A stretch of 64,000 nucleotides of DNA, from contig CM037867.1 of assembly GCA_021292105.1 (NCBI GenBank), forward strand, positions 41,976,843-42,040,842. Reading direction: 5' to 3'. The DNA is from Anadara kagoshimensis (lineage: Eukaryota; Mollusca; Bivalvia; Arcoida; Arcidae). The translations under genes and the position numbers were made by a program. Every line of letters begins with the position of its first letter. The first letter of the stretch is position 1. Positions 161-32,569 of this stretch are shown here, piece after piece. The notes beneath the pieces were generated by a model. The model did no database searches, had not been told where the DNA came from, and saw only the letters and a program-made list of their open reading frames with translations.

Positions 161-1440
161 CCAAGACGACACTACATTATACGAATGCTAATGAAAACCA
201 AATTAATACAAACAGAATAAAAATAACTACAATAATTAATCATAATTAATCGTGAAATTAAATATATACTGCTCTTCATAAATAACTTAACAAATTTATA
301 CTTGCCTTAGGATAACATTATCATTATAATCATCATATCAAATTGTTCCATACAATTGAAATATTGAAGTTTTTTCATGTATTTAGAAACGATATCTGAA
401 CTTTATAATCTAAATGTATGTAACAAAGTTATTGTTCTTGAAAATTAATTTTCTGAAATTTTAGGGGGATATTTTCAAATTTATTTTTCAAAATAATAAC
501 ACTATTTTAGCTGAAAAACACTCAGTTTTGCCTTCATATGTTTTCAACAGTTTAATTGGGTGAAGATTTTGATCTGTTATAATGGATCAGTTTGAAACAT
601 GTATAATAATTTATGGAGGGCAGTGTATATTACATCACACGATAAATTGCAGGAAATTGATTGGATATGTACATGTACTGTATTTTGTATAGTTTCTGTC
701 TGTCCTTAGCAGACTGTCCGTCTGTCCGTTGACAGCAAGGTACTATTGTTATTCCAAAAGGGTACCTTATTATTGCACGCGCCACCTTTGGAACAAAAAC
801 GCAATTTTGTAAACAAAAAATTCGTCAAGATTCGGCGAGAAAGACCCAGACAGATTCATTTCGGACCAGATTGCACACTATATAAGTGGAATTGCCTAGT
901 GTCTTAATGTCTGTCTGTGTTTTCTTTCGGCTCTGGCACTATACTCCCCAAGACAATACTTTAGTAGCACAGGTCCTCAGGAAAACATAATGATGCATAA
1001 TTATTCCAATCGAAATAAAACGGTGTTTGGGGCCGGGTGCTTCTGATGCATCTCCTGTTTAGCTAGTACGCTAGCAATTTACCAGTAAACTTGATAATAG
1101 TGCAATTTAAAAAAAATGAATACCACAGTGGTTAAACGTCTAAATATACATGTATACAAAATATCTTTAAAATATTTCAATACTTTAATGATATTATTTA
1201 GTTCTTGGTTCATGTTTATAAAAATTTTAACATTTCTTTTTGGAAATGTTTTTCGGTATGATTGTGGCTGTTAAACTAATTGTGTCGTTTGATATAGTGT
1301 CAATTGCCACAGAGGAAGTTCAAAACACATGACAAGTCTTATATATCCTGATGTACCTTTTATAATGTAAAACAGAAGATAATATTGCAACTGAAAATAA
1401 TGAAGAACAGATATATATCAATGTAATTTATACGATGTAC
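161..1440. other. RLR intron, no gene seen
   Basis: AT-rich. Contains a reverse-orientation R1 fragment at about 1015-1072 (GGCCGGGTGCTTC and TCCTGTTTAGCTAG) and no open frame or splice pair that fits the RLR. Confidence 0.5.
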
Positions 1441-1527
1441 CAGCCATATATTTCTCAATATTCTCCATAAGCTGCTGGATTGTTTCTCCGAATAATTTGT
1501 TTTTTCTGCCAGGTGTTCGATGTAATT
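1441..1527 (-). CDS. RLR exon: pincer/insert region after motif III
   Basis: 87 nt, phase 1-1. Encodes [18 protein letters not shown] followed by ENIEKYMAG, similar to the region after motif III in MDA5 (RP...FGxxxxxMM..I..FM). Acceptor CATTTTTCAG is good; the donor GTACAT is weak but needed, because the frame meets TGA soon after. Further exons are off the left edge. Confidence 0.75.
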
Positions 1528-4500
1528 CTGAAAAATGAAACTAGAATTAGTTTATTTTGTATAACCCCCTTACTTTCAACCAAAAGAAATCAGAAACAGC
1601 TAATTAATTAAAAGCACCTCCTGTTTCGATCTAACAGATAATTATATTTAGCCTTTATACAAAAATGTTGTATGCCTGCATGTCAAGGTCAAATTGAATA
1701 TATGTTTGTCCTGTCTGTTTAGATGCAATTAAATATTTTCTAACTGAAATTTGATCTCTTATTATTCACAAGGTTAAATTGAATATTTGTTTACCTGCTC
1801 TTGGAATAACAGAAAATCTTTTGAGCTCTTCTGTGTGCCTTTCCATAGTTGATATATGTTGAGCGTCAAGATTAGCAATAAATACAGACTGAACTGTCGA
1901 TAAAAGATTATTTGCCTTTCCAACTCCAACAGACGCTGTTAATCCAACAATCTAATAATCAAAGCACCGAAGGTGCCCAGCGAACAGAGAGAATACACAG
2001 TGGCTAGCACAATGTACTCTTCCAGTTTGGCATACAATGGGGGATGGCATGGAATAATGTCTTCATGAAATTTTAATGTAACTTTTGTGGCCCAAGTGAT
2101 AAGGTGGGGGAGTGGCATGATGCAAGTTGAGATGCATGTCTTGGTGGAAAGGAAAGCACCAAATTTGCATTGACTGTGGAAGACATACCACTCATGTGGC
2201 AACAATTTTAAATTGGAAGAGAGCAATGCGTTTACATGTTTTAATGAATGTTATGTCCTGCAAAGGACAGGGGATCTGAAATGTGTACATCACGGTGGCA
2301 GCCAAAGAGGTGCCAGGAAGTCTGTGGCAGGCTCTCTTGGAGTTTAAGTAACATTTTTAGGCTGATGGAGATGCGTCATGTGCAATGACATGGCAAGGGA
2401 AGCATGGATGAACCAGTGATGGCTTTGCTGGGGGGGGGGGACTGTCGATGCTCCCTACGTAAATGGTGTTCCATTTCAGGTACAGCTATTTGAATTTGCT
2501 GTAATCTGGAAGGAGAGTACATGTAATGTAACTGTGTCCGTCAAAATTCTTTGCCAATATCTTATAATTTGGTATTATGAGATTGGTAACATTCACATTA
2601 GTTCTTTTTGTGGGGTGGGGTGAGAATACATTTTATCCAGCTGCTGGTCATTGTGACAGTATGATATTCTTCTGGAGAAAACAGTTACACTTACACTCTT
2701 GGTGTTGTTAAAATGTTTGGTTAGGCAGGGGGTAGGTGGTACAATGTGACATTTTTCTGCCAGTGGACAAACTATATGCATGTGGTCACCATTGCAAACG
2801 AAAACAAAGTCTGTTAATTATAACAATTGCAACTTTTATTTGAATAAAAACATTTTCCATAATTTAAATTGCACTATTGTGTACATGTTATAGGTTTGCA
2901 TGCAAACATAAGCAGCACAAATTCATGACATAAGCAAGTGACAGTACATACAGGCAAACAAATGGAAAAGTGATTTATATCAATAATTACAAGGATGTCT
3001 GGATAAACTACATGTAGCATTAAGTGACACATTATAATACTGTGAAGAAAATGTCATTGTCTGGGAAATGAATAAAAAAAAAATCCAAAACATTGTAAGG
3101 CACCAATAAGGCATGCAATACTAATGTTATTTTCCATAATTTGGAAGAGTCAAATGAGCATATCTTGCGTGAAAGTATGACCTTCAGTGATATCAAAATC
3201 AGAATACTAGCACATAACATCATGCCATGGGGAAGATGACATCATAAATTCCAAAATTTAGAAATTTTTAATGTGTTTCAAATTCTATTCTGTGATTTTA
3301 GAGTAATTAACTTTTGTTCAGGTTCATACATTGTGTATAAACAGAAGTGAGGTACATTCTATCTGATGATTCTGTCTGATTTGGATGTAGAACGTCGAAC
3401 AACAAAGTTAGACTTTACAAACAAGGTGTTGATGTCATTAAAGGAAAACGAAAAATAACCCTTTATGAGTTAATCGATATAGAACAAGGAAATTCCACCA
3501 TCGGGTCTGCGTTTCTTGGCAGAGACTAATCAAGCCAGGTGTCTGATTAAAATGTACAACCAATCAAGGGGATTTCCCTATCGTACATGGATACTCATAG
3601 AGGTTTTTAATATTCCCAGAAATGAATGACAGAAAATGAAACATACATGGTAGGGGGTAGAACTGGCATAGGTAAGGTAATCGAAAACAGTAAAATACAT
3701 GAATTATTATGAAAAGCAAATGAAAACAGATGCAATGACAAGGACCAGCATTACAAGTACGGGAAAAATGCTGTCCTCTGTAATGTTAGAGTGCAACTAC
3801 ATGTTGAATGTAGGATTTTCCTTATTGATATGTTTCTTGAATATAGATTTACATTGCAATTTTCCAGATGAATGGTAGTCATCAACTTGTGATACATAGC
3901 TGCATAATTTTTCCGTATACACACATATGTCTTGTAAACAACATTTTCCTTTGAACCTTTTCAATGCATGTTCAGTTTGCAAAGCAAAAAACTTGTTCCG
4001 AAAGAATACAACACAATTTGCATTGGCATGCGAAACACCATTGTGAAACATGTGCATGAAGTTTGAAACAATGTACATCTTAAATCAAGCAACATATCAA
4101 CAATAACAGATATATTAAGAAATCCTAAATTAAATTGGTGTGGCTATATATATTGAAATACTGCTAACTATGTCAAAGCACACATTTCTCAATTTAATTT
4201 AGCATGCAAGACACTATTGAGGAACAAATGCATGAAGTTTTCGTTGGTACATCTTAATGCAATCAATATATGTAGAAAATCCTACATTCAAAATGTTGTA
4301 GCTATATGGAAATTTTGCTAACTATGCTAAAAGCACATGTGGCACTATTTGTATTAACATGTGAGACAATATTGAGAAAAAAATGTTGTAGCTATTATAA
4401 GCTATATAGAAAAACTGTGCTAAAAGCACACGAGGCACAACATATCAACAATAACTTATATGCTGAAAGCACACATTTCTCAATTTGTATTAGCATGTGA

Positions 4501-7500
4501 GACAAAACTAAGGAACAGATGCATGAAGTTTGTAGTAATGTACATCTTTATGCTATCAACACATCAACACAAACATATCTATATTAAAAAATCCTACATT
4601 CAAAATGTTGTAGCTATATAGAAAAACTGCTAACTGTGCAAAAAGCATACATTTCTCATTTTGTATTAGCATGTGTGACAATATCAAGACAAATGCATGA
4701 AGTTTGTAGCAATGTACATCTTTATGCTATCAACACATCAACAAAAACATATATATATTAAAAAAATATCCTACATTCAAAATGTTGTAGCAATATAGAA
4801 AAACTGCTAATTGTGCCAGAAGCAAACATGGCACAATTTGCAGTTGCCCACTGACTGTATCTTATACGTGAAAAGTTGCTGAAAGTTGTGCTTATCTGAC
4901 AAGGAATGGAAGGAGCATGTAGCACTATCAAGAAAGTCTTCATAAGAACAGGACCATCGTACATCGTGCCAACTTAAAAACCATTCAAGAAACGAAACAG
5001 GTAGACACTGTTGTCGGCATAAAAAAGAACATTTAGGAATACAGAGGATTGACATTGTCGCACTTCAGTGTCAATTAGGAAAACATTCAAGGAAATGGAA
5101 GGGGCAGACACTGTCGCATGTCGGTGACAGCATGAATAACATTCAGGGAATATAAAGCATTAGCACTGTTGCACATCAGTGCCACCATGAATAACACCCA
5201 GGGAATGGAAAGGGTTGACACTGTCGCACATCAGTATCGGTATCAAAACCATTTAGGGACTGAAGAGGGTTAACACTGCCGCACATCAGTGTTATGATTA
5301 GGGCTGTCAATGATAGAGTCATATATCGGTATATCATGTTTAAACGCCATTGCTATATGTTATATTGGTACATTTAATAAGTATCTATATCAACAGAAGT
5401 GGCCACCAGTCGCTGGCCAAAACTGGAGTAGCCAGAGACACATAACAAGTTGTGAAAGTATTATATTTTAATGTATCTCGAAAGCTGACAGACATACAAT
5501 ACAATGTGATCATCGTGTTTGAAACATTTAAGACACAACAGACATGCCAAATATTGGTAAAAATAATTTGCCTGTAAATGACTCAACAAGAAATAAGTTA
5601 TTTTAATTAATTTTCCATAGTCTCATATACCAATACTCACGTTTTAATCAATGACAGTTCAAAGTGATGTGAATCATTAGAATGTGAGTCAACATTATGA
5701 CATGAAAAATTATTCACTAGAGCGGGAAATCGACGTCTCTGTCTCTTGTTTTAGCTCCAACACAGTCCCTCCTCTGACAGTCAAGTGGACCTCTTGGTCA
5801 AGTAGGCGATCAATATCGCCTTCATAGCTGGCAAATGTGTATTCTTTCTGGTTTTCCGCTAACAGCACTGTTGTCTCCCCATCTTGGTAAATATCAGAAA
5901 TCCTTATGCATATGTTTTCTTCTGGCATTTGTATTTTCTGTCAGGAAAAAGAAAAATGCAAATTACACAAATGTCTGAAGATAAACGATATGTATGTATT
6001 TTGCACTGTATCGAAGATGAAGGGAACAGAAAATAAAATGGAGAAAACAATGTAAAGTGCTTCTTGGAAACAACAATGTGGCCACAAGAGGCCAGACAAA
6101 GGTAAAATGTGACTAAAGTGATTGGGTGACAGACTTCAAGTATTGGTTTGTTTTGACAAACTGATATGAATGAAATAACAGAATGCTGTAGAATGCCTAG
6201 TTTCCAGAAATGTGTGTGACAACCATGGCTCAGCTGCAAGTGTTTTGGGTGCAGCTCAGATTTGTTGAATGTGCAACACCTATCGCCCTGAGTGAATTCT
6301 GGCCAGACCTCTCGAAGGACAGCTTGGAAATAAATATCCAAAAAGCAAAACCAAAAAGGACAAGGTATCCAGATGCTGCATAGGTTTATCTCTTTACAAA
6401 TTCTGAAATGAAAGGCTGATAAAATCCCTGAGTCTGAGGTCCTATCGATTTAACAACGGGACCATTGATATTGAAACTGTCAAAGGCAGATGGACCTGCT
6501 ATTTCACTGGGAATATGTTACATGTTCTATATGATGACATAAATGGAAATCTTTCAGTGATTAATTAAGGAATTCAAAACTTAATACGAGACTTGCCAAA
6601 CGCAAGGCATAAGGTCTTCCCTTACAAAATAGAATCAAGAACCCCTGAAATGAATCATTTTATCAGTGATATAGACTTTGTTACAGCTCTCATCAATATA
6701 CAGACATACCAGAGTACAAAAACCTCCCAAGGGAACGGGTGAAACTGGTATTTATAACATGTCCTTTATAAACCTGAACAATTAACATGATTGAAGAGTA
6801 ATTGGGGCGAAATTTCTCTGGCCTTTTAAAGGAGGTGGTCTTCAACAAATTCACAGAGGAAAAAACAAAAACAAACTTTTTTTAATGCAGTTTCTGTGGA
6901 AGTCAATTGTTGGAATTACAAATTACAACAATGCCAAGGCAGGTCAACATTGTTCAAGCGCATTTGAAGACTTATGAACCAATTTATATTAGCAATGAAA
7001 TGAAAGTGTGCACATCTGCAATCACAGACTGGAAGGAATTACTTCAATAATAATCATACTTCAATTGTGGTGCTGTTAGTACTACTTAGGGAAACCTTCC
7101 TATTCCAAGAGCCAACAATGACGTTGGTCACAGAAATATAATCCCCCGTTTTGATATCTGACGAGGCCAAGTCTCTCCAAAGGGACACTCTACATTTGGC
7201 CTCATTACTGGCCAAAATGAATCCTTTAACTGTTGATGGCTTATTGAAAGCCATAACTGTTTGTGCCATTTCTTCCTGCAATAGAAAATTAAAAGTGAAA
7301 TAGGTCAGCTGAGTGCATAAAATCGAATGTTGTATAATCTTTAACCACATTGAGTCACAATATCACCATGAGTATCAGTATTTGCAGGTTAGGGAACCAT
7401 ATTCAGAATTGTGCACAAATTGGCATATGATACTCAGTGACGAGATCATATCAACAGGAAACACTGCATCACTTAAGGAACATGTGAGGAATTGACAGTT

Positions 7501-8515
7501 ATGATGGAGACTGTCATGGACTGGTACAAGCAGTTAACAAAGTATTTTCTTTGAATATTGCAAGGCACATGACTAGTGCAATCTGCAATGTAAAACATGA
7601 CTTGCACAATACGTAAGGTTATCCCCTAATCTGCTATGTTGTAAAAACCAAAAGAACTTGTGGCAATACATTCATTACATTCAAACACAGTTAGGCCTGC
7701 TATTGCAAACATTGCTTTCAGATGACCATATATCAATTCAAATAATTAGAGCAGAGTTTGGAAAACTCACTGGTATGAGTATTTTTCCAACAGGGTTTTA
7801 TACAACAACATCTATGGACTTACCTGTATTTCCTCCATTATTTCCTTATCTACTTGTTTTCTTCTTATATATGATTTTATTGTGTTTTAATGCTACTTAC
7901 CTGGACAACTTGGCCCTTGATGGACACCATTGTCTTCAATGGTGATTTCTTCAGGTCTTTCAAGGGCACCTCTGGAGCAGGTGGAGGATTCAGTTCATTC
8001 TGTGCCAGAGACTCAGCTCTGGCACAGTTTCCACTGGAGATGTTTTGTACACTTTGGATGAAGTAGTTAAAACTACTCTGAACATCCCTGATGACTTGGT
8101 TATATAGTTTCTGATGATCAAGCTGTTTCCTGCCTTGATCATCTGATTTTTTGCATGGTCGTAATTTCTTACACGGGCTATCTTGGATTTGTCCCCTACG
8201 ACGAAATCCAAGCTCTGCTTGGATTCCCCACTGCTATTTGTGTAATCAATAGCCTTGTCAACAGCTATCACCTTTACCCTCAGTGGCAAGTCATACGGCC
8301 CTGCCGTCTTTCCAAGAATGGTTTTCAATGTTGCAGTCATATTCTGGAAGAAATAGGAAAATAGGAATTGTATTAGATATGTAGGATGAAATTATGACGA
8401 ATTTGAAGTCATTAATATTTTAAGAATGACATAAATCCACATTTAAAATCTATTTAAGCATTAGCAACACAATTCCTTAGCTAAGAAAATAATCACAACT
8501 TCATTGGAAGCATAT

Positions 8516-8550
<35 letters not shown>

Positions 8551-11500
8551 ATAGTTAGCAGAAGAGAAATCAAACAGAAATGACTAGCCTACGGATGTGG
8601 ATTAACAATTAAAAAAATTGGCTTGTGGTCAGAGTAATAAGACTCCAGCGTACCATATTCTAGATGGAACAATTCTGGATTCAAGTTAGTGTAAATGTGA
8701 TCAATAACTGTGTTGTAGTCAGTTGTAGATTGCCTTACCAACTGAGTTAGATTGAACTCGGTTCTCACCAAATCTGTTAACTTCTTACATTTTTGAACAT
8801 TATAATTGAAATCACCCATAACAATCAAAGGTGCACCAAACAGACTTATTTGAGCAATTGTGGAAAAAACATCTTTTAATTTTTGCAGAGTTGAACAAAA
8901 CGGTGGACAGTAAACAAAGCATAGGTTGATAAGTATCCCATGGATATGGATTTGTTCCATGACAATTTGTGACCTGTTAACTGACATGCTTGAAACACTG
9001 GTTGTATGAGGCTTATGATATATTGCTATTCCATAAGGGGGTCTCGTTTCTTGATTGAATGAGAAATCAAACCTTTTCAAGTGAAATTTCTCAATCATGT
9101 AATCTTCATCTGTGTCGTCAGACTTCAATCTTGTTTCTGAGAGTGCCAATATATCTGCAGCAAGTAAACTGAAATCATTCTGAACATCACCAATGTGTTT
9201 GTGTAGGGACCGTGTGTTATGATAAACAATTTTAAAAGCGGATTCAAAACACTTGTATAGGGTTGGCAGACATGGGGAAACCTTAGCATATTTACGAAGT
9301 CTGTCCATTTCATTTAAGACACAGGAGGAGACAGAGATTTGGATTCATTCAAGTCCAGTATGTAAAGCGAGGACTGGTGCTGAACTCGACTAAGACCACA
9401 TAGTGAATATGGTCTGATCTTCTTTTGCCGAAGTGAGCAGCTGCTCCTGTCAGTGTGGACCCCTGTGATTTGTGTGTCGTTTTTGCAGCTGCCAATTTCA
9501 AGGAATTGCCGTCTGTTTACATAATAATTTTTGTAGTACATAACTGGTACTTTCCTGGTCACTTCCAAGATGGGTGTCCAGGTCCCAGGAACACCATCAG
9601 TGTATAGGTGTTTATAACTAGTCCTTTGTTGTTGCCCTATAGACTCGTCCTGGAAATCTACCAACAATACTACAACGCTTTGACCCTTCCACCTGAAGTC
9701 AAGTTTCTTACTATGCATGGTGTTCCATTGGCCATGCCACCCTCCACATTAATGTTTATGCAAATTTCACAGTTAAGAGATTCAGCTATTTTAAGTTTGG
9801 TAGGCAAAGCGAATGTTTTTGTAATTGTGCCCTGTATTTTCTCCTTGATTTTAAGTTTCAGGTCTTCCGTAACATCGCCACAAACCAAGTCAATAGCATC
9901 AATGACAGTTTTCTGAGTTGGGTCAACATTTTCAAAACAAATTTCGTTGAAAGAATCCACTTCAGATCTATGTTTGTAGTGAATAGGTGTGGCAAATGCT
10001 TGGGAACCTTATCTTGGGGAAAAACACGGGTTTTTAAAGAATTTAAATCATCTTCCGTGTGGACACCTTCTCTCAATCGATACAGCAATTGTGCAAATCT
10101 GTAATCATCTTTTTGCCTTATTATCTCTTTAAGCTCAAACATTTGAAAGTGCTAAGTCCATAAATTAGTGGACAAAGGACCATAGTCTGCACGCAACTGT
10201 GAGAATATCCAACTATCCATTACAGGCTTAAGTTGGAAAATATCACCTATTGCTATAACACTTACACCACCAAATGGAAGTTCACACACTTTTATGTCCT
10301 GCAGGCGTAAAATAATCAGATTTAACATTTTGTTCCCGTCCATTGATATTTCATCTATGAAAAGAATTTTGAGTGAACCAAATTTGGAACGCAGGGAACT
10401 TAGCTGTGCCATGTCTAAAGTTTTATGCATCAACCCCTGCCCCACTGGAATACAGAACAATGAGTGAATGGTATGGCCATTAATATTATAAGCAGCTTTT
10501 CCAGTCGGTGCACAAAGAAGCGTTTGGATGGAATCAGGGTTTAAAGCAAGTTGGTTCGAGTAATATCTCAGCAGGGTTTGGTAAAGGGCACGAGTGACAA
10601 CACTTTTACCAACACCAGCACCACTCGACAAGAAATTGTAGATTGGCTTGTCACATGTTTTAAACCAGTGCAGTACGTGGTACAGATATTCTTTTTGTTC
10701 CATATTTAAGCTTTGCATGAGTGAACTGTAACTTGCGTCTGGGATCTTTCCCAGCAAAAGATCATCTTGCCCGATTTGTTTCCTTGTTATTCCAAAGTCC
10801 AGACCAATATCATAATCAAGTGGTTTGTCACCTGGATTGAAACATTCAAATTTCTCAGACAAATTGCTGGCATGAGATCCATCAATTTCTTCATTATGTT
10901 CATTTGAAGGAGCTACCTGGGCAAAACTATCTCGATCGTCTATGCACTCAGTTTCCAATGTGTCTAATAATGATGAATTGGACTCATATGAGTTGGCATT
11001 TTTCGCAATTACAGACTGCAATTTGTTATACCTTTCTTTATATGTCTGTTCACCACCTATGAGGTTATCTTCATTCCTCCAGTAAGTAAAAACCATGATT
11101 TTCTCTCTAAAACGCTTTTCTCCATCTAAGTGAATACTAAACCGAGGGTATCTTAAAATCTTTTGTTTCAGTTTTTTAATCAAAGCAGCCCCATTCTTGA
11201 AATAATAAATTTCTGCATCATCACAATCTGGGCCAAAGTTCTCATCAGACAGGAAAGAATTGCCTTCAATATCATCTTCCAAGTTTACATCATAAGCATC
11301 TTCTTGCAACTCTCCCATTTGATAGTATATTGATAGGTTTTTTTGTAGAAGTAACATAATTATACCAAGACAAAAAGTCAGCAAGACAACAATTTTATAA
11401 AGAACAGGGACGCCGAGCATACCGTTTGATTGCATTATCACTTTCAATGTCTGTTGAAGACTCTGGCATATTTTTCAGGTCTGCAACTGATTTCAAGAGA

Positions 11501-14500
11501 ACTACCCTCTCATCAGGGGGGTTGGTATTTACGAAAACAAACTCTCTTGTTGTCCGTTTAAGGGGCATTTGTAAGACCAAATACACAGCCTCTTGAGCAC
11601 CAACCTCAATATTTGTTTAGAACGTGTTTCCAATTTTCTTAATCTGGTAACGTATGTCACTTTCACTTGCCTTGGCCTCTTTGCATGCATTATAAAGCAA
11701 ATTAGACATTCCTCGTTGGCCTTTAGAAATGTATGAAACAATGTAGGCTGCACGTGCATATGGGTCCAATGTGTATTGAATATCCAGGTTTCCTCCCAGC
11801 TCTTGAGCATCACATCGTTATAATTATTGATGCGTACCTCCGATGGTTGCCTTTGCAAAAAGACTTTTGGAGTTTTTAGACTTGATCTAATTGCCAGCAC
11901 ATACTCATCAAAATCCATATCAAGTTTTCCCAAGAAATCAGGAAATGTGATATCATCACCCAATTTCATTGCATCTAAAGTCTTAGCAATTTTCTGGTAA
12001 TTCCTCTCATTTGCAGCTGATTTGTTCTCGTCTGTTAGATGGGTTAGAATCATTGTTTTAGGCAAAGGAGGCAAAGGAAAATTGGTCTGCCACGTTTTCT
12101 GCATGTTCTTGCATGACGATGAGTTTGATAGTTAATGAGGTTTGGGATGGAGTCGTCTTTCTTGCATGTGACATACTTGTCTATAAACTGAATTATTTCA
12201 CTTTCTTTTGAGATACCGTATTTAGGAGCATTTTTTACCCATAAGAGGACATGCAAATGTGGCGATCCCCTCTGTTGAAACTCAACACGCTTGAAATGGT
12301 CAGTAATCGGGCCTATGGGGTTGTCAGCATGATTCAATACATGCTGGAAAAATGAAGATGCTTTAAAGTCAAAGTAACGTGAACATGATGTAGGATCGTC
12401 ACGAATTAACTGACATGTCTTTTGCCAAGTCATGTTATGGATCTCCTCGTCGGTATAATCCTTTCAATGCAGTAATTTTCCCAGGATTCTTAGGAGAGGA
12501 GTCTAGCGTGTCTCGGCATAAGGTCTTCCCTTACAAAATAGAATCAAGAACCCCTGAAATGAATCATTTTATCAGTGATATAGACTTTGTTACGGCTTTC
12601 ATCAATATACAGACATACAAAAACCTCCCAAGGGAACCGGTGAAACTGGTATTTATAACATGTCCTTTATAAACCTGAACAATTAACATGATTGAAGAGT
12701 AATTGGGGCGAAATTTCTCTGGCCTTTAAAAGGAGGTGGTCTTCAACAAATTCACAGAGGAAAAAACAAAAACAAACTTTTTTAATGCAGTTTCTGTGGA
12801 AGTTAATTGTTGGAATTACAAATTACAACAATGCCAAGGCAGGCCAGCATTGTTCAAGCGCATTTGAAGACTTATGAACCAATTTATATTAGCAATGAAA
12901 TGAAAGTGTGCACATCTGCAATCACAGACTGGAAGGAATTACTTCAATAATAATCATACCTCAATTTTGGTGCTGTTAGTACTACTTAGGGAAACCTTCC
13001 TATTCCAAGAGCCAACAATGACGTTGGTCACAGAAATATAATCCCCCGTTTTGATATCTGACGAGGCCAAGTCTCTCCAAAGGGACACTCTACATTTGGC
13101 CTCATCACTGGCCAAAATGAATCCTTTAACTGTTGATGGCTTATTGAAAGCCATAACTGTTTGTGCCATTTCTTCCTGCAATAGAAAATTAAAAGTGAAA
13201 TAGGTCAGCTGAGTGCATAAAATCGAATGTTGTATAATCTTTAACCACATTGAGTCACAATATCACCATGAGTATCAGTATTTGCAGGTTAGGGAACCAT
13301 ATTCAGAATTGTGCACAAATTGGCATATGATACTCAGTGACGAGATCATATCAACAGGAAACACTGCATCACTGAAGGAACATGTGAGGAATTGACAGTT
13401 ATGATGTAGACTGTCATGGACTGGTACAAGCAGTTAACAAAGTATTTTCTTTGAATATTGCAAGGCACATGACTAGTGCAATCTGCAATGTAAAACATGA
13501 CTTGCACAATACGTAAGGTTATCCCCTAATCTGCTATGTTGTAAAAACCAAAAGAACTTGTGGCAATACATTCATTACATTCAAACACAGTTAGGCCTGC
13601 TATTGCAAACATTGCTTTCAGATGACCATATATCAATTCAAATACTTAGAGCAGAGTTTGGAAAACTCACTAGTATGAGTATTGTTCCAACAGGGTTTTA
13701 TGCAACAACATCTATGGACTTACCTGAATTTCCTCCATTATTTCCTTATCGACTTGTTTTCTTTTATATATGATTTTATTGTGTTTTAATGCTACTTACC
13801 TGGACAACTTGGCCCTTGATGGACACCATTGTCTTCAATGGTGATTTCTTCAGGTCTTTCAAGGGCACCTCTGGAGCAGGTGGAGGATTCAGTTCATTCT
13901 GTGCCAGAGACTCAGCATCTGGCACAGTTTCCACTGGAGATGTTTTGTACACTTTGGATGCAGTAGTTAAAACTACTCTGAACATCCCTGATGACTTGGT
14001 TATATAGTTTCTGATGATCAAGCTGTTTCCTGCCTTGATCATCTGATTTTTTGCATGGTCGTAATTTCTTACACGGGCTATCCTGGATTTGTCCCCTACG
14101 ACGAAATCCAAGCTCTGCTTGGATTCCCCACTGCTATTTGTGTAATCAATAGCCTTGTCAACAGCTATCACCTTTACCCTCAGTGGCAAGTCATACGGCC
14201 CTGCCGTCTTTCCAAGAATGGTTTTCAATGTTGCAGTCATATTCTGGAAGAAATAGGAAAATAGGAATTGTATTAGATATGTAGGATGAAATTATGACGA
14301 ATTTGAAGTCATTAATATTTTAAGAATGACATAAATCCACATTTAAAATCTATTTAAGCATTACCAACACAATTCCCTAGCTAAGAAAATAATCACAACT
14401 TCATTGGAAGCATATTAATATTTTTTTTTTGCATAGTTAGCAGAAGAGAAATCCAAACAGAAATGACTAGCCTACGGATGTGGATTAACAATTAAAAAAA

Positions 14501-17500
14501 TTGGCTTGTGGTCAGAGTAATAAGACTCCAGCGTACCATATTCTAGATGGAACAATTCTGGATTCAAGTTAGTGTAAATGTGATCAATAACTGTGTTGTA
14601 GTCAGTTGTAGGTTGCCTTACCAACTGAGTTAGATTGAACTCGGTTCTCACCCAATCTGTTAACTTCTTACATTTTTGAACATTATAATTAAAATCACCC
14701 ATAACAATCAAAGGTGCACCAAGCAGACTTATTTGAGCAATTGTGGAAAAAACATCTTTTAATTTTTGCAGAGTTGAACAAAACGGTGGACAATAAACAA
14801 AGCATAGGTTGATAAGTATCCCATGGATATGGATTTGTTCCATGACAATTTGTGACCTGTTAACTGACATGCTTGAAACACTGGTTGTATGTGGCTTATG
14901 ATATATTGCTATTCCATAAGGGGGTCTCGTTTCTTGATTGAATGAGAAATCAAACCTTTTCAAGTGAAATTTCTCAATCATGTAATCTTCATCTGTGTCG
15001 TCAGACTTCAATCTTGTTTCTGAGAGTGCCAATATATCTGCAGCAAGTAAACTGAAATCATTCTGAACATCACCAATGTGTTTGTGTAGGGACCGTGTGT
15101 TATGATAAACAATTTTAAAAGCGGATTCAAAACATTTGTATAGGGTTGGCAGACATGGGGAAACCTTAGCATATTTACGAAGTCTGTCCATTTCATTTAA
15201 GACACAGGAGGAGACAGAGATTTTGGATTCATTCAAGTCCAGTATGTAAAGCGAGGACTGGTGCTGAACTCGACTAAGACCAGCATAGTGAATATGGTCT
15301 GATCTTCTTTTGCCGAAGTGAGCAGCTGCTCCTGTCAGTGTGGACCCCTGTGATTTGAGTATCGTTTTTGCGGCTGCCAATTTCAAAGGGAATTGCCGTC
15401 TGTTTACATAATAATTTTTGTAGTACATAACTGGTAATTTCCTGGTCACTTCCAAGATGGGTGTCCAGGTCCCAGGAACACCATCAGTGTATAGGTGTTT
15501 ATAACTAGTCCTTTGCTGTTGCCCTATAGACTCGTCCTGGAAATCTACCCAAACAATACTACAACGCTTTGACCCTTCCACCGTGAAGTCAAGTTTCTTA
15601 GCTATGCATGGTGTTCCATTGGCCATGCCACCCTCCACATTAATGTTTATGCAAATTTCACAGTTAAGAGATTCAGCTATTTTAAGTTTGGTAGGCAAAG
15701 CGAATGTTTTTGTAATTGTGCCCTGTATTTTCTCCTTGATTTTAAGTTTCAGGTTATCCGTAACATCGCCACAAACCAAGTCAATAGCATCAATGACAGT
15801 TTTCTGAGTTGGGTCAACATTTTCAAAACAAATTTCGTTGAAAGAATCCACTTCTATGTTTGTAGTGAATAGGTGTGGCAAATGCTTGGGAACCTTATCT
15901 TGGGGAAAAACACGGGTTTTTAAAGAATTTAAATCATCTTCCGTGTGGACACCTTCTCTCAATCGATTGAGCAATTGTGCAAATCTGTAATCATCTTTTT
16001 GCCTCATTATCTCTGTAAGCTCAAACATTTGAAAGTGCTAAGTCCATAAATTAGTGGACAAAGGACCATAGTCTGCATGCAACTGTGAGAATATCCAACT
16101 ATCCATTACAGGCTTAAGTTGGAAAAGATCACCTATTGCTATAACACTTACACCACCAAATGGAAGTTCACACCCTTTTATGTCCTGCAGGCGTAAATTC
16201 ATCAGATTTAACATTTTGTTCCCGACCATTGATATTTCATCTATGAAAAGAATTTTGAGTGAACCAAATTTGGAACGCAGGGAACTTAGCTGTGCCATGT
16301 CTAAAGTTTTATGCATCAACCCCTGCCCCACTGGAATACAGAACAATGAGTGAATGGTATGGCCATTAATATTATAAGCAGCTTTTCCAGTCGGTGCACA
16401 AAGAAGCGTTTGGATGGAATCAGGGTTTAAAGCAAGTTGGTGCGAGTAATATCTCAGCAGGGTTTGGTAAAGGGCACGAGTGACAACACTTTTACCAACA
16501 CCAGCACCACTCGACAAGAAATTGTAGATTGGCTTGTCACATGTTTTAAACCAGTGCAGTACGTGGCACAGATATTCTTTTTGTTCCCTATTTAAGCTTT
16601 GCATGAGTGAACTGTAACTTGCGTCTGGCATCTTTCCCAGCAAAAGATCATCTTGCCCGATTTGTTTCCTTGTTATTCCAAAGTCCAGACCAATATCATA
16701 ATCAAGTGGTTTGTCACCTGGATTGAAACATCCAAATTTCTCAGACAAATTGCTGGCATGAGATCCATCAATTTCTTCATTATGTTCATTTGAAGGAGCT
16801 ACCTGGGCAAAACTATCTTGATCGTCTATACACTCAGTTTCCAATGTGTCTAATAATGATGAATTGGACTCATATGAGTTGGCATTTTTTGCAATTACAG
16901 ACTGCAATTTGTTATACCTTTCTTCATATGTCTGTTCACCACCTATGAGGTTGTCTTCATTCCTCCAGTAAGTAAAATGCTCTCTAAAATTCTCTCTAAA
17001 ATGCTTTTCTCGATCTAAGTGAATACTAAACCGAGGGTATCTTAAAATCTTTTGTTTCAGTTTTTTAATCAAAGCAGCCCCATTCTTGAAATAATAAATT
17101 TATGCATCATCACAATCTGGGCCAAAGTTCTCATCAGACAGGAAAGAATTGCCTTCAATATCATCTTCCAAGTTTACATCATAGGCATCTTCTTGCAACT
17201 CTCCCATTTGATAGTATATTGATAGGTTTTTTTGTAGAAGGAACATAATTATACCAAGACAAAAAGTCAGCAAGACAACAATTTTGTAAAGAACAGGGAC
17301 GCCGAGCATACCGTTTGATTGCATTATCACTTTCAATGTCTGTTGAAGACTCTGGCATATTTTTCAGGTCTGCAACTGATTTCAAGAGAACTACCCTCTC
17401 ATCAGGGGGGTTGGTATTTACGAAAACAAACTCTCTTGTTGTCCGTTTAAGGAGCATTTGTAAGACCAAATACACAGCCTCTTGAGCAACAACCTCAATA

Positions 17501-20500
17501 TTTGTTAAGAACGTGTTTCCAATTTTCTTAACCTGGTTACGTATGTCACTTTTACTTGCCTTGGCCTCTTTGCATGCATTATAAAGCAAATTAGACATTC
17601 CTCGTTGGCCTTTAGAAATGTATGAAACAATGTAGGCTGCACGTGCATATGGGTCCAATGTGTATTGAATATCCAGGTTTCCTCCCAGCTCTTGAGCATC
17701 ACATTGTTATAATTATTGATGCGTACCTCCGATGGTTGCCTTTGCAAAAAGACTTTTGGAGTTTTTAGGCTTGATCTAATTGCCAGCACATACTCATCAA
17801 AATCCATATCAAGTTTTCCCAAGAAATCAGGAAATGTGATATCATCACACGATTTCATTGCATCTAAAATCTTAGCAATTTTCTGGTAATTCCTCTCATT
17901 TGCAGATGATTTGTTCTCGTCTGTTAGAGGGGTTAGAATCATTGTTTTAGGCAAAGGAGGCAAAGGAAAATTGAAACGACCAATTGGTCTGCCACGTTTT
18001 CTGCATGTTCTTGCATGACGATGAGTTTGATAGTTAATGAGGTTTGGGATGGAGTCGTCTTTCTTGCATGTGACATACTTGTCTATAAACTGAATTATTT
18101 CACTTTCTTTTGAGATACCGTATTTGGGAGCATTTTTTACCCATAAGAGGACATGCAAATGTGGCGATCCCCTCTGTTGAAACTCAAACGCTTGAAATGG
18201 TCAGTAATCGGGCCTATGGGGTTGTCAGCATGATTCAATACATGCTGGAAAAATGAAGATGCTTTAAAGTCAAAGTAATGTGAACATGTTGTAGGATCGT
18301 CACGAATTAACTGACATGTTTTTTGCCAAGTCATGTTATGGATCTCCTCGTCGGTATAATCCTTTCAATGCAGTAATTTTCCCAGGATTCTTAGGAGAGG
18401 AGTCCAGCGTGTCTCGGCACATGATCAAGAAGTTGGCATACCAAGTTGTCGTATCATTGCAAAAATTTCATGTTTGCCTGTTCCCAGTATGGCGGTGAAC
18501 CCTTAACCTCCTGAGAACCTGGTAGCCTTCATTACATTTTATGATACTTTCAAGGCCCCCCGGAGCTAGAAGATCACCAACTTTAAATTTCCTACCCTTT
18601 GTTTTATATTTTCTCACAGCCATGGAAACTCGGTCTCTTAAGTGTTTGATTTGTAACGGTTTAATTTTAAAAAAATGTTTGGGATACACTTGCGAACCCT
18701 CCTGTCAACATGTAGTTCCTATTTGCATATTGTGCTGTAATGTACAGGCTCTTTCAAATCTTTCTTGTCACGGGCTGTGCCACAGTAAATTGAAGGGAAG
18801 GCTAGGTATTCAGACTTCACATCATCAAACATACTAAGGGGTATATTTCCTTCTTCTGGTGCCACACTTAAAATATTTGAATATTCCCGAAAATCAACAG
18901 GGTGCAGGACTGTGTCTAAAGTACCTGTAGGTCTGTTTTCAAACCCTTCAACTTCAGAAAAATGATCAGATTCATCAATTTCATTAGTACTTGCAACCTG
19001 TTCAACACCTGAATGTTCGTTTTGACAGTCTTTACCATATCCAAAATCAGAAGCAACAGGCTGACGTTCACTGTCAATCATGCCATCTGTCTCACCATAA
19101 CCTTCGCAAAGCCAATTGCCATCAAATGTGATTCCTTCATTCTTAAAAAGCTCACTATTTCCTACCAACCATTTTGCAGCATCTGCCACTTACTTAGGTC
19201 TCACAGGCTCAAAAGCAATAAAATGGCTTGACAAAAGCTGTCTTTTAAACTTGAGCAAGATTGTTTCATCTTGTGACATAGTCCTAGGTAATGTATTTTT
19301 CTACTTCCTGATTTACTACTACTGTCTGCTTTATCAAGATCACATAAAAAAGGTAAATCAATTAATTTCAAATTTGGACAGACTTTTAAAAGTTCTTTTG
19401 GATGACCTAAATGTGAATCAATTTTCCTGACTGAGACAGATGGTTCCCGCCTCTGTCTTCGTTTAATTGAATTGGATTTAACAAAATGCAGTTTTAAGCA
19501 GCTTATTTCAAATTGGGTTGCTTCCCTACAGTTCCTAATAAAAGCTTGTCGTAAAAAAAACAAAGCTCTTTAAAACCAGTTACTTTGAGGAGGGAGCATT
19601 TTCCATCAGAGGATGAAAACCCATTCAAATCCCTTGCATGTGAGTCAAATATGTAAAATATAATATCTCGCCGTACTATTGCTACTGTATATTCACATGC
19701 GATAAACAAGCAAGTATCAGAATGTAAAAATGAATAATGAAATGCTGCCTCAAGGGATATACCGACATTGCTATCCTCGTTAACATCATTGTTTAAAATC
19801 CCAGAATAAATATTTGCAACTTGAATTGAAAATGGAACCTCCTCCAGAATAATAACAGAAGGTAAATCAGATACCATTAAATATGGATGTGGCACTTCAC
19901 TTGATATTGATTTGTATAGATTATTGCCACTGAAAAGAATTGTATTCAAATCCCCAGTAGACCACAATTCAATGTCCTTCACAAGGGAATATGCAAGAGC
20001 AATGGCAGCATTGGCCGTGCACTGTTTGCCACGAGAAATAGCAGGAAAAATGCTAGAACCTTGGTGGAGGTCAGCTTGAGCTGTTACAGTAACTTTCACC
20101 ATTTGTTATTTGAAAACAAGATTGGCATCAGCATTCAAAAAGCTAATTTCTGTTGGCAGCAGACACAGTTCCCAAGTATGAAGCCCAGGATATCTAAAAT
20201 ATGATAATGTAGCGATAACAAATTTTAGAATTAGCCATCAACACTAGGCTATCTATGTTTGCATTGCTCCTGCTATTTTTGTGTTATTTGCTGAATGGGC
20301 ATGGTTAGTTTTTATGCCCAATTTTGTTTACATGTAAAAATTAATGTGGTGTGTTTGTTTGTATTATATGTATCTAAGTCCACCACATGCTCTCTACAGC
20401 TTATGTTTATGAGTTTAATACTTGACTGTTTATTATCATAGCAATTTTAAGCTATATTCCAAGATTTTCAAAGTCCAAGCATTTCTTTCAAGATCTCACA

Positions 20501-23500
20501 CTCCAAGTATTTCTCCAAGATTTCAAGCTCCAAGCATTTCTCAAAGATTTCGCCAAGATTGAGCATTTCTCCGAGTTACTATATTGTCTGCCTTCAGAAA
20601 CTCAAACAACGGACATACAATATATTTTATTATAATAACAAGAAAACGCACAATAACTTCATAAATTCCTTTTATTTAGTTTGTTATTGTTTACCGATAC
20701 AGCGCCACCTAGCGAAGCTATCCCTGCCCCTGCAAGTAATACACTGTACAGTAATCCCAAATCCTCCCGGGCAGGCTGGAATACTACCGCAATTTCAATA
20801 AATTCCCTACCCCCTGGTCGAATGCATCACATTCACGATGCGTAACATACCTCCTAATTAAACAATAGCTACGGGTCATAAAAATTTATAACCTGGGGTT
20901 TCGGAAGGGAAACGCTCATGTAAAACAGCATATCATTTAAAAAATGCCCATTGCAATCGTACATTTTAGAACATAATTTACTTATAACGTTACCCCTATC
21001 TATTACAACATACTTACTATATCAAACGTGATATAATCTTCAAGAAAAATTCGCCGTGGTCCTGCAGTTCACTCTTCTCGCCAAGGGCACGCTATTCGCA
21101 AGTATCACGTGATAGATTTCGTCCAATGGAAATGTAGTGTGAAGATATTGGACGTGTGCAGAGGGGCGAGAGATTTGTACAAAAAGTGCAACTCAGTTCG
21201 CCACACTCGCAAATTATGCACAATATTACTTTTCTGGCGTAATATTTTTAAGTGACATTTAAAAAAATTATAAGGCAAGTCTAGGTTTAATATACACTTT
21301 TAGATTTTCCATGAAATTTTGCAATTGTACAAGAAATGAGCAAAATTACCTCCGGAAACTTGGACTTGTGTGCGGAAGATAACATGTTCAATCGGCGCAC
21401 AAGAAATCGCCATAATTATATTACAAATACAAACAATTCTAATATTTTGCGATAGGGAAATATCATATTCCCATCCTGTGGACATTTAATGAACCAGAAT
21501 TGTCTATTATAGAAGAATTTGATAAAAAAAGAATCAACCCAAAACTCGGTCAGACGACAATTAGCTTATGCGGCTCAGTTGTGCATACTCAATTGTTTTC
21601 ATCAATCTCTTCAAAAATTCTCGTTTTCCCAAAAAAAATACAAAACAATTTCATTTAAAACATACTCATGTCCGACAAATGTGAGAAATTCCATTTCTAT
21701 ACCAAAAATGCAAATAAGGTGAAAAAATAACTCAAGTGCTACCGTGCGAGGTACACTTTTCGAACTACACCAGCACAACGCATTTTCCATATTCTTGCGC
21801 ATGCACTGTGCTGCTACTATGATTGTTGACATTGTCACACAGGCATTGGAATGAAAATCTCGATACAGCTATCAACGATGGTGCACATGCGTTTTCATTT
21901 TCCATAACTCATAATGCATACATTATTAATGTACCTACTGCAGACACGGTTTTCAGCGTCTCAAATTTCCGCCTCAAATTCCCGCACTATGTTTGCGAAA
22001 GGGTTCATTGGTGGCGGTTGTCCAGCCAGTCCGCTTTGAAAAAATTGAATTTTCTCATTTAATTCTGACCGGTTTCACCACTTGAATGTTTTCCTGTGTT
22101 GGGTTCCATGTATCCTTCTTAGCCAATATGCTTTGCCCTGCTTCGTTTCCCCATACCCAAGTTATCAACGTTTTCTTTCCACAGCGTTGTAAACGACTCC
22201 CATGCCAATACTCCCAGAGATATCTCTTTGTTAGTAAAAAGTAGTATGGTCATTTTAAATATCATTCATGTTTTATCATAAAGTTTAAACCGCTATTTTA
22301 AGTTGTTGATTATAAAAACGTGTTTTTTTAATTTGCTACTCGCAATAGCCAAAACAAAAAAAATCATAAGTTAGAGTATATAGGAAAATGCAAAACAAAG
22401 GTTGATTTATTGATTGAATAGGGTTAAATAACTAAGTAAAAAAAATCAGTCATTTTGAGGGATATTGCAAACCTAGGATGATCAAGGCCCTCAAAAAGTG
22501 TTATGGCCGTCATTACAGTATTGTTGATAAGTTTGATGCTCTGTGTACAGGATTGCCCGAGATTTTTGACGTCTCATAGTTCCTTGTTCCTTTCTCAATT
22601 TTGATTACACACGTGGCAGGTGTAGCTTGATAAAGATGAGGTGCTTACCCTTCCGGAGCACCCAGCCTAACTTTCCTGGTGAAGATTCGCGTGTCACATT
22701 TTTACTTTGTTTCTGGATTTTGATTCGTACATGGATCAGTATGTTTGTTTTGTTGAGTTTTTAAAAATAAATATTTTATTAACAATTTACAAGTTTTTTT
22801 TTCCTAAAGTTTTTTTTAAAAGTCGTTTGGTTGAAGATGAGATGTGATACTATAGGTAATTGGGAACGAACTACGAATAAAGGTCAACAATGTTTTCAAA
22901 TAGTGTGTCGATTCTGTATTTGCAATTTTAAGCTTCTATGCCTTTTTTGGTCATTGTACCGTCTACAGGTCACTGTGACCGTAATTATAGGTCAAGGTCA
23001 ACCAAGTCTGTAAAATCGTAAGGACTGGTGTTAGATAAGAAATGTCATGCTTTTAGACTTTTTGGTATAAGATGTTTAAGTACTTTAGTTCAATGTGAAC
23101 TTAGATAAACCAGCTTTCTTAACCCGGAAGAATGTCAACATCCTTGCCTATTTGCATTGCCAAGACTTATTTGATTGTTCTTTTTAAAGAGGACTTTTTT
23201 AATGAAAAATTAACGAACAGGTATGGAAGAGATGCGATGATCAAAGGACAAATGAGTATTTACTCAAATCAGCATGTAATTTCCTTAAAGTGTCTAAAGT
23301 ATGTTTACATAAGAGTATATAAGATTGTTATCATAGAATCGCAAACACTTGAGTATTCTCAAATCAGAAAATGTAAATACGTATAATACATTCTTACCTG
23401 AGGACGTGGCAATGACCTGTCAGCACTAAGTTTCACGTCCATATATTGGTGTAAAATTTGGTTATATGCGTGATTCTGTGTAGCATGGTGACACTCATCA

Positions 23501-26500
23501 AATACTAACAATGTGAAATCCGAGATGTTTACACTCTTTGTCTCCAAAGCATTTACCAAGATTTGTGCAGTCATAACCAATATATCAGCACTAATAAACA
23601 AAAGAAAATATAAAATACAGTCAAACATATCTATAAAGACAATCCAAGGGAACCAGTAAAAGTGGCCTTTATGAGCAGATAGCCTTTATATACAGGTTCA
23701 AATTATAGGAATAAGGAACAATTAGGATACAATTCTACTGGCCGTTATAGACAGATAGTCCTTATGTCGAGGTGGCCTTTAAGACAGGTTGGACTGTATT
23801 TATAAAAGTGTTGGAAATTGTTGGATAACCAGAGTTAAAAAGATGTAGATAATCAAGGGTATTTTAACAGAATTTTTCGATGACTTAATGGTCAAGTAAA
23901 TATTGATTACAATGATTATAATCATCTAATATTTTCTACATAATTTATGCTACTTAAAGCAAACTCGTTTATTTTTTCGACTTAAATTTTACAATTGCAA
24001 ATCGCAATAACAATGTATCATTGAAAACAAAATTTACGAAAAAAGTTAATAACTCAGGATTTTCAGTTTAAATCAGAAAAAAATATCCACATAAATTTGA
24101 TTTAGTACTAGCTACTTTGATTTGTGTGGGCCAGCTGGCATGATACAAATTTAATATATAAAAATATATCTTAAGAATTTTTTATGTAAACGGCATATAA
24201 TCCAAATTTAATATATAAAAATATATCTTAAAAATTATTTATGGAAACGACATATAATAAAAATTTAATATATAAAAATATATGTTAAAATTTATTTATG
24301 GAAACGGTATATATGTGTTGGTTATTTTTTTATTGTTTGGTAGAAAATGGCACCAATTTTTTCTATTGACCACTTCTCTTTTCTATTTCTGATTGTCGAT
24401 CTTGTGGTACATTTGTTAACATTCTATGGTAGAGCTTGTTTCTGTGTCGAGAACTTTATACAGCAAGTTATAGATTGTTTTCGCAGGATATTGCTACAAA
24501 TTGACCGTTGATGTGTTTGAAAGTCCATAGTTACTTTTTAATTACGGTTACGTATTTGGCGGGTGTAGCTAGCTAAAATGAGAAAATTGTCTTTCCAAAG
24601 CACCCGATCTAGTTTCCGTGGTAGAGGTGTATGTGCTAAATTTGATTTTCCAGTTTACAAATTTTTGCTTTGTTGTTAAATTGTTATTTGGACATGGATT
24701 GGTATGTTTGTTTTTTTATTAAAATGAAGCGTTTAACATCTCAGTAGTCGAAGCGTGTTTCCTTTTTCTTATTACTCAATTTAAAAAATTCTTCCTAGTG
24801 ATGCAAAAGTAAAACTGGTTTAGTAATATTTAATAACTTTATCTATATCTTTTTAATTCATTAATTGTTAAACCATTACAAACATTATTCATATCGTTTC
24901 TTACTTTTTAAGCGATAAGGGCACAGTATCTATGTGTTCTCTTTTCTGAGTATCCCCTGTGATTTCCTTCACCTTATGATTCAAATATTTTCTAATCTGT
25001 CTACATTGCTGATTTGCTAATGCAGTTTTGTCAACAAGGAATGCCACTTTTCCCTTGTCCCCATTTTTGTCAAAATGATTCTGAAACAAATAGCGTGCAG
25101 TAATTAACGTGTTAAGCGTTTAACTATGCGTAAAATATCACGTGACATTTCCTTATGTCTGTTTTCCTTCTTTCTTGTCTTTACAAACATTTTTTGTTTT
25201 GCATTCAATATTTTATTGACTGTTAACAACGTTTTTTTCATCGTGATGTTTATTTTGTTGTATAAGATGATTTAAAATTTCATTTTAGTTATGGTAAAAA
25301 TACAAGAAAATTTTGTATAGTATAGTTATGCTGTTTAATACTATTTATTTATCATTATGCTACTAGCCGTGTGCGAGTGAACTATAACATTTCTATATTA
25401 TTTGGTCAGGAATGGAATATTTTTTATTAAGCACAGTCCCAATGTAAGATTGTCATAACCATAGCAAGAAGTTTCACACCGTGAGATATCACAACAGACC
25501 CCACCCCCCGAATCTATCGCAGTCCATTATAAAAGCGGCAGAATATTGATCATCATAACATCAAATACAGGTTGTCGCCAATCTTACAAAATAAAACGCG
25601 CAAGGTCAGACTAGTCAGTGACCGCCAAACGTGTGAAATTGGCAAAGAAAATAATTAGTCGCATATGCAAGCAGCCCCTGCATAAGATATTGGCGTCGCC
25701 TCTATGTGAGTATCGGGTATGTCGTGATCTTAAATGAAATTTCAGCAACCGATTGCAACACACTAGTCGATCAAAAGTGCCGACAAGTTGGCGTGTCGTC
25801 TGTATTGGGTTATGGACGTGCTTTAGACGTACGCCTCTATCTTGACACCGCAACGTTACAATCAATCTTAGCTTTTGTGTATTACATAAAAGAATATTTA
25901 TTGTATACTGTATTCAGTTATTTGTCAAATGCATTCATTACCTAAGCAGTGCAAAAACGTTAAACACGTGAACTTCCACCAGGGATTATTGAAAAGATTA
26001 TTGTATGTACATATGTTAGGATAGTTAACATCCATGTATTTGCGAAAGAATATTTTTTATTATCCATGCAATTCGAACACTATAAATTTTAACAAAGAAT
26101 ATATAATAATAAAAAATAAAAATATTTATTCATTTTCGAAAACAAATCCAAAAAAAAAAAACTTTGAATCTGACAAATTGGGTTAAACACGTGGACTTCT
26201 ACCAGGAAAGAGAGGCCGATTATTGTAAAGATTATTGTAACCTATATGATAATTTTTATGTTTTCTTTACCTGGATAATTCTTATTGCAACATGTGTTTT
26301 TCCGCTACCAGTAGGGGCAACAATTAAATCATTCTTCCCCTGAATTGCAGACTCTGCTAATTCATGTTGATAGTCCCTCAAAGTTAATTCTAAATTAAAA
26401 AAGAAATAAATTCCTGAAAATAATATCTTAACTATAGTCAATACAATAAGGAAATCAACAAAAAAAGACCATCTGTACAACGAATGATCGAGTTCTAGAC

Positions 26501-32073: not shown

Positions 32074-32569
32074 CTGAAATGGAAAGAAAATTGGATACAA
32101 AAAGGCCAATACGATCAATTTCTAAAAGATAGTGATTTGGTTTTTTTTTTGTTTTACAGTACACACTGTTAAAAGTTTAACTTTCATCTAACGAAAAGGC
32201 GTCGAAGCTTGGCTCTCGAGTGTCCGAGATATGGATAGCTAGTGATCATAAGGATGTCCAGGAATAGATAGCAGCTGCCAAAAAGCTAACAAAAGGACAA
32301 CAATGACCTGCCAATTCAGAATTAATTCGATAGAATGGTGTTACAGTTTCAAAATGCATCTACTGTAAATGTTAAAAAGCAATATATGTCGCTTTGTTCA
32401 TCGTCCGCCATTGTGACAGCGAATTATGAAAATGTTCATAAAAACAAATTTACGTGTGTTCTATATAGTCAACCTTTCTTAACTAGGGCATAACTAAAAA
32501 CCAAACCGTTATTTGAATTATCTACTAGCATAGTGTAGTTTTGTAAATGAATTGAATGGGGTTTTACCT

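Follow-up and report, generated by a model that had tools for sequence, protein, structure and literature searches.

A Helentron within the splice acceptor of a RIG-I-like receptor gene of Anadara kagoshimensis and its possible effect on splicing

Introduction

What becomes of a splice acceptor when a very large transposon settles between its branch region and its AG? The question is raised by a 64,000-nucleotide stretch of the genome of the bivalve Anadara kagoshimensis (GenBank assembly GCA_021292105.1, contig CM037867.1), hereafter the window, which lies on C11 at 41976843-42040842 of the 1.115-Gb assembly of 36 contigs that was searched. Its minus strand carries a RIG-I-like receptor (RLR) gene, an antiviral sensor with CARDs, a helicase and an RD, the last outside the window, and the intron between helicase motifs II and III holds a Helentron of about 20.28 kb (1958..22235, minus strand). 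A first-pass annotation had described the receptor gene as split by this intron and had taken an insertion on the gene's strand to raise the chance of chimeric or exonised transcripts; our analysis confirms and sharpens the observation, and the interpretation is partly supported. The answer that we favor, with a probability of about 0.6, is that the Helentron inserted between the Ts of the RLR acceptor tract, that its own 3′ end may now serve the host AG, and that the displaced host branch region may compete.

The Helentron in the acceptor of exon III

The 3′ terminus of the Helentron lies six bases before RLR exon III (1795..1951, minus strand), which carries motif III (...IPRAG) and starts at 1951 after ATTATTAG. 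These six bases, TATTAG (1952..1957, minus strand), are the whole remnant of the host intron on the exon III side, as marked by the divergence of flanks after TTTGATT, and 1162 bp of host intron is left on the other side. When the flanks are joined without the element they read ...TTTAAAATGACCATACTACTTTTTTATTAG|ATTGTTGG, an ordinary acceptor (ATGACCATACTACTTTTTTATTAG), and the restored intron of 1168 bp falls inside the paralogue range of 583-1934 bp. Because the joined flanks restore an ordinary acceptor, the Helentron is placed inside the polypyrimidine tract of that acceptor, on the gene's strand. The insertion is at TT (TTTTT, element, TATTAG), with no target duplication seen, and runs of T blur the exact base.

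In the filled site all bases before the AG, bar the last six, belong to the Helentron 3′ end. The joined flanks identify ATGACCATACTACTTTTT (22236..22260, minus strand) as the branch-like and pyrimidine sequence of the host, now displaced, and the original branch region, in which the branch site is putative, is now 20.3 kb upstream; the element stands between branch region and acceptor AG, the arrangement of the merle type discussed below. The pyrimidine count is 12/18 in both the filled and the empty acceptor. The anatomy of the DNA is secure, apart from a 5.9-kb duplication inside the Helentron, and it is the effect on splicing that we infer.

An old intron in an intact receptor frame

Pfam matches to CARD_2, ResIII, Helicase_C and RIG-I_C, with RIG-I_C-RD on the RD exon, define the host gene. 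Its coding pieces on the minus strand begin with a CARD-like stretch, not a full exon (31904..32083; CARD_2 E 0.0052, 17.2 bits, under the cut-off of 28.2), and a second CARD piece (30567..30866; CARD_2 E 3.1e-12, 46.8 bits), which gives the N terminus one clear CARD_2 match. They continue with a motif I piece (26271..26393; ResIII E 4.7e-7), a motif Ia piece assigned by paralogue homology (24943..25089) and the exon II piece with the DECH box (23398..23589), which ends ...DRSLPRPQ at 23398 with the donor CAG|GTAAGA at 23398/23397. Beyond exon III follows the start of hel2i (coding piece, 1436..1501, minus strand; homology to one paralogue), and the rest of hel2i together with motifs IV, IVa, V and VI lies in L002, the adjoining part of C11 downstream of the window. 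Motif VI is followed, likewise outside the window, by an RD exon that includes the stop codon (RIG-I_C-RD E 4.6e-17 in L003). Each helicase motif was found once and in order across the window and L002, and the frame was open in every piece examined (588 codons of conserved pieces and the RD exon). A long minisatellite-like stretch (L002:4929-7665), the minus strand of which is open for 892 codons, also lies between the exons for hel2i and motif IV.

The intron between motifs II and III (1952..23397, minus strand; 21,446 bp) is in phase 0 at both exon ends and interrupts the same codon as in five paralogues. The joined exon II-III peptide retrieved RIG-I (4a2p) as the top of 71 matches in PDB (E 1.4e-40), and the alignment is continuous across the junction, where no residue is missing and the query has two additional residues immediately ahead of PQ; the split and the intact host frame of the first-pass annotation are both borne out by this alignment, and the idea that an exon is missing between the two motifs was rejected since the alignment passes the junction without a missing residue. 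A protein search of the genome with motifs II-III gave nine exon matches at seven places, two of the matches being this RLR gene. All five paralogues with both exons in the fetched DNA have a phase-0 intron at the same codon, with lengths of 1781, 583, 583, 1685 and 1934 bp versus 21,446 bp here. The possibility that the transposon created the intron was rejected, as all five of these paralogues have the intron there, and to judge from them the intron is old and family-wide. The sole exception among the seven places is on C8 (E 5.4e-6), where a single open frame runs through both motif matches uninterrupted by an intron; as its box is DEAH and no RD was matched on C8, we take this place for another helicase. 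Two of the RLR paralogues, L017 and L023 (C10, 1.91 Mb and 1.52 Mb), are nearly identical and lie ~0.39 Mb apart in opposite orientation. Because the genome yields eight matches to the RIG-I_C-RD profile, including a partial one with an internal stop, the gene studied here is one of about seven RLR genes.

Boundaries and relatives of the Helentron

The 5′ end of the Helentron is common to copies on C3 and C19, and the 3′ end is common to 14 other fetched ends. A genome search with the duplication junction returned these two long relatives together with numerous matches to a dispersed repeat that sits inside the duplicated unit. Pieces of the C19 copy match the window from 22240 down to 1954-1957, and the C3 copy has the same 5′ start and the same 3′ end as the window Helentron; the interior of the C3 copy was compared outside 48086201-48090659, and within it 48082717-48086200 is without match to the window intron. 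The sequence is T|AC[T/G]AACA[A/G]AGAGA at the 5′ ends and TCTCTCTGTTCG-CT-GGGCACCTTCGGTGC-TTTGAT|T at the 3′ end, where the C19 copy has two differing positions. The 5′ subterminal repeat is altered in the window (CTAACAAAGAGA; 22223..22234, minus strand) by two changes from CGAACAGAGAGA of the C3 and C19 copies; the 3′ subterminal repeat TCTCTCTGTTCG (1981..1992, minus strand) is the exact 12-bp inverse of the C3 5′ repeat, and a 3′ hairpin, GCACC-TTC-GGTGC, is present at 1964..1976 (minus strand).

An alignment of 15 such 3′ ends, namely those of the window, C19 and C3 copies together with 12 short ones, shows common sequence as far as TTTGATT and divergent flanks beyond it. Some of the 12 short-end flanks agree a few bases further, these ends having been picked from the top of the list (40 of 117 candidates scored), so that the flanks lean to longer matches. 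From 116-131 bp each, the short ends could be regarded as HINE-like. The last 32 bp of the Helentron occur at 72 exact genomic places, and the backwards control at 0. One further copy of the 3′ end (L063, C14:52603410-52603530) is followed directly by TTACAG|GCAAG, a possible second acceptor. An exon-like open stretch also follows an acceptor-like sequence, TTTACTAAACAG, about 1 kb beyond the 3′ end of the C19 copy and in the same orientation (L051, C19:17905801-17908050); a PDB search with this stretch gave no match.

Internal duplication and coding content

The middle of the Helentron consists of two 5.9-kb units, A (12515..18419) and B (6606..12518), both given on the minus strand, which share 97.5% identity and overlap by 4 bp, TGCC, at the breakpoint. 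Since the window has a single copy of each part outside the units (18.4-22.2 kb and 1.96-6.6 kb), this is read as one Helentron with an internal tandem duplication and not as a head-to-tail pair; two Helentrons in tandem were rejected because the units exclude both termini. The tandem Helentron of about 15 kb in the first-pass annotation thus gives way to a single element (about 22235-1958) of about 20.3 kb, as measured by the ends common to other copies. The units differ at 88/5879 aligned bases and by 16 indels, and each has a frame break absent from the other. Substitutions are spread evenly over codon positions 1, 2 and 3 and elsewhere (19/1370, 23/1366, 19/1370 and 27/1773), as in neutral decay, and selection on the duplicated Helentron genes was rejected. 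Of the 40 hits scored among 187 candidates, the window alone spans the duplication junction, and the 5.9-kb duplication appears, as far as scored, particular to this copy. The C3 copy (C3:48.078-48.091 Mb; L030, L031 and L053) has its own internal duplication of ~1.2 kb and a doubled 3′ hairpin, and because of this duplication we consider that internal duplications recur in this Helentron family.

Pfam was run on the minus-strand open reading frames (ORFs) of the Helentron only. Rep, PIF1-like helicase and endonuclease ORFs were found on that strand, in agreement with the orientation first proposed. The Rep ORF of unit B (12050..12463) matched Helitron_like_N (E 1.9e-15, 58 bits), and the ORF tested in unit A (17505-18200) reached 17.8 bits, under the cut-off. 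The PIF1-like helicase ORF (unit A, 16038..17099; unit B, 10152-11474) matched PIF1 with E 3.1e-19 and 1.9e-17. Just downstream of it in unit A is an endonuclease ORF of 521 amino acids (14472..16037; unit B, 8589-9344; Exo_endo_phos E 4e-10 and 2.9e-10), and the AP-type endonuclease, fused to the C-terminus of Rep/helicase, that characterizes Helentrons is found here; the first part of this ORF is helicase in our own reading, Pfam giving no match there. The Helentron also contains a herpes-tegument-like cysteine protease ORF (19506..20105, minus strand; Herpes_teg_N E 5.5e-8, 33.1 bits). As for the RPA exons of the first-pass annotation, two OB-like ORFs are indeed present in unit A (12957-13262 and 13776-14291, span 12957..14291, minus strand), but their OB-fold matches are weak (SHLD2_OB1 E 0.003, under the cut-off; best PDB match Ifi204, E 0.18), and an RPA identity is putative.

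A satellite-like array with a spacing of about 136-177 bp (3999..4870, minus strand) has counterparts in both the C3 and the C19 copy; for the 55-bp array at 5051-5291 a counterpart was found in the C3 copy but not in the C19 stretch. Altogether the element combines Rep (HUH), a PIF1-like helicase, an endonuclease, subterminal inverted repeats, a 3′ hairpin and TT insertion, the features by which Helentrons are recognized. A dispersed repeat of ~185 bp at 23613-23798, just upstream of the DECH exon, has relatives inside the Helentron units (6693-6842 and 12615-12745) and at several other genomic places.

Predicted splicing and alternative explanations

According to the reading that we favor, the Helentron, which inserted between the Ts of the acceptor's polypyrimidine tract in the gene's orientation, would replace the lost tract by its own 3′ end, a pyrimidine-rich subterminal repeat followed by a hairpin that could fold out, and some transcripts at least would probably go on using the host AG at 1952 as acceptor. 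As a competitor, the branch and pyrimidine sequence of the host now displaced to 22236-22260 would select an AG within the 5′ end of the element, for which the sequence alone offers candidates at 22226, 22224, 22211 and 22197 (22197..22227, minus strand). Transcripts made with these cryptic AGs would be truncated, keeping the CARDs and helicase motifs I-II and gaining a short tail encoded by the Helentron; from the AG at 22226, 56 further residues follow PQ in phase 0 before a stop. The position of the Helentron end within the pyrimidine tract gives more concrete grounds for expecting mis-splicing than the shared strand does by itself, and the prediction is base-exact, with an exon start at 1951 versus 22225 and neighbours.

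Several observations weigh against this reading. The best branch-like motif scores 5.0 in the filled versus 7.0 in the empty acceptor, and by this rough rule of our own the filled acceptor is the lowest of 28 scored sites, the other 27 ranging over 5.5-8.0; the 29 sites, of which 28 were scored including that of the window, were hand-chosen as the most pyrimidine-rich nearby AG rather than as verified acceptors. The Helentron holds six sense AATAAA, a count without chance control. Moreover, 6/146 TT steps in the restored intron fall in its last 12 nt, that is, a chance of ~4% under a plain TT-target model, so the insertion position, which is uncommon without being exceptional and was noticed post hoc, is not strong evidence of anything special.

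In effect the insertion could be a truncating allele, which we consider possible though doubtful: if splicing went to one of the Helentron's 5′ AGs, or if transcription stopped at a sense poly(A) signal inside the element, full-length RLR would be rare. The host branch-like sequence and T run that now face the Helentron 5′ AGs, the weak branch motif before the true AG and the six AATAAA all agree with it, and loss of this gene could be covered by about six other RD-bearing places. What it has to explain is the intact frame of the 588 conserved codons and the RD exon. By a clock taken from units A and B (14/16 indels frame-breaking and 88 substitutions, shared between the two copies), the chance of having no frameshift or stop in 1764 bp (588 codons) without constraint would be ~0.07, assuming that the duplication arose in place, that the sequence is correct and that 4-5% of substitutions make stops; because of this low chance the intact frame lends weak support to a still functional RLR.

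Two further explanations concern the assembly. The 5.9-kb duplication could be an artefact of two haplotypes or repeat copies set end to end, with a real Helentron of about 14.4 kb; the difference between the units is at a level that could be allelic and the junction was seen in this copy alone among those scored, but the sharp ends inside the Helentron, the TGCC overlap, the unduplicated flank and the different internal duplication of the C3 copy make this explanation unlikely, slightly more so than a truncating allele. Much less probable still, to the point of near dismissal, is that exons II and III derive from two gene copies joined by rearrangement or misassembly and that the 21-kb stretch is no intron. 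The stretch is nearly all repeat DNA, where assemblies can fail, but the helicase motifs occur once each and in order, the joined flanks give a clean acceptor and a paralogue-like intron length, and the peptide runs continuously through the junction.

Comparison with known systems and implications

Transposons at splice sites are already known as a kind, and the closest mechanistic precedent is the merle short interspersed element (SINE) in canine PMEL, for which altered transcripts were shown; that SINE is a few hundred bp long, in reverse orientation and with a 15-bp target duplication, as described in PMC7349775. As in merle, a transposon at the boundary has come between branch region and acceptor AG, and the element offers a cryptic acceptor that could compete; unlike merle as reported there, the insertion here is a rolling-circle element of 20 kb that runs in the gene's orientation, has no evident target duplication and is described at the DNA level. 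Among the open-licence papers listed, as judged by titles and the starts of abstracts, no report was found of a Helentron in a splice acceptor.

The element itself resembles the Helentrons and HINEs portrayed in PMC4067079 and PMC7492417 in its Rep, PIF1 helicase, endonuclease, subterminal inverted repeats, 3′ hairpin, T target and satellite-like arrays. For oyster HINEs with satellite arrays, the link to autonomous elements is given as unresolved in PMC7492417; in contrast to that account, long coding copies here carry an array and have a 3′ end common to 72 exact places, and bear on the question of autonomous partners. Herpes-tegument-like deubiquitinases are known in Helentrons, molluscs included, according to PMC9741609, so that the protease ORF with its Herpes_teg_N match, whose activity is predicted by sequence only, is nothing new in kind relative to that source. 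Lophotrochozoan RLRs are portrayed in PMC8998645 as several per genome, CARD-bearing and subject to exon-intron change and exonisation. The several RLRs of this genome and the CARDs of the present gene fit that picture; the account there concerns N-terminal domains, with 'transpos' occurring 0 times in its main text, whereas the transposon here is in a helicase acceptor.

If a transposon end does act as a 3′ splice signal, a very large element could settle in essential intron sequence of an antiviral sensor with the reading frame unbroken. A bolder generalization, which we consider improbable, would be that the 3′ ends of the Helentron family are portable splice-acceptor cassettes (pyrimidine-rich repeat, hairpin and T target), the T preference steering them into pyrimidine tracts, where the signal would be replaced without killing the gene; the second outcome here would be a CARD-bearing RLR truncated after motif II.

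Other features of the window

A short minus-strand frame at 57351-57488 has a cysteine pattern that we take to be EGF-like.

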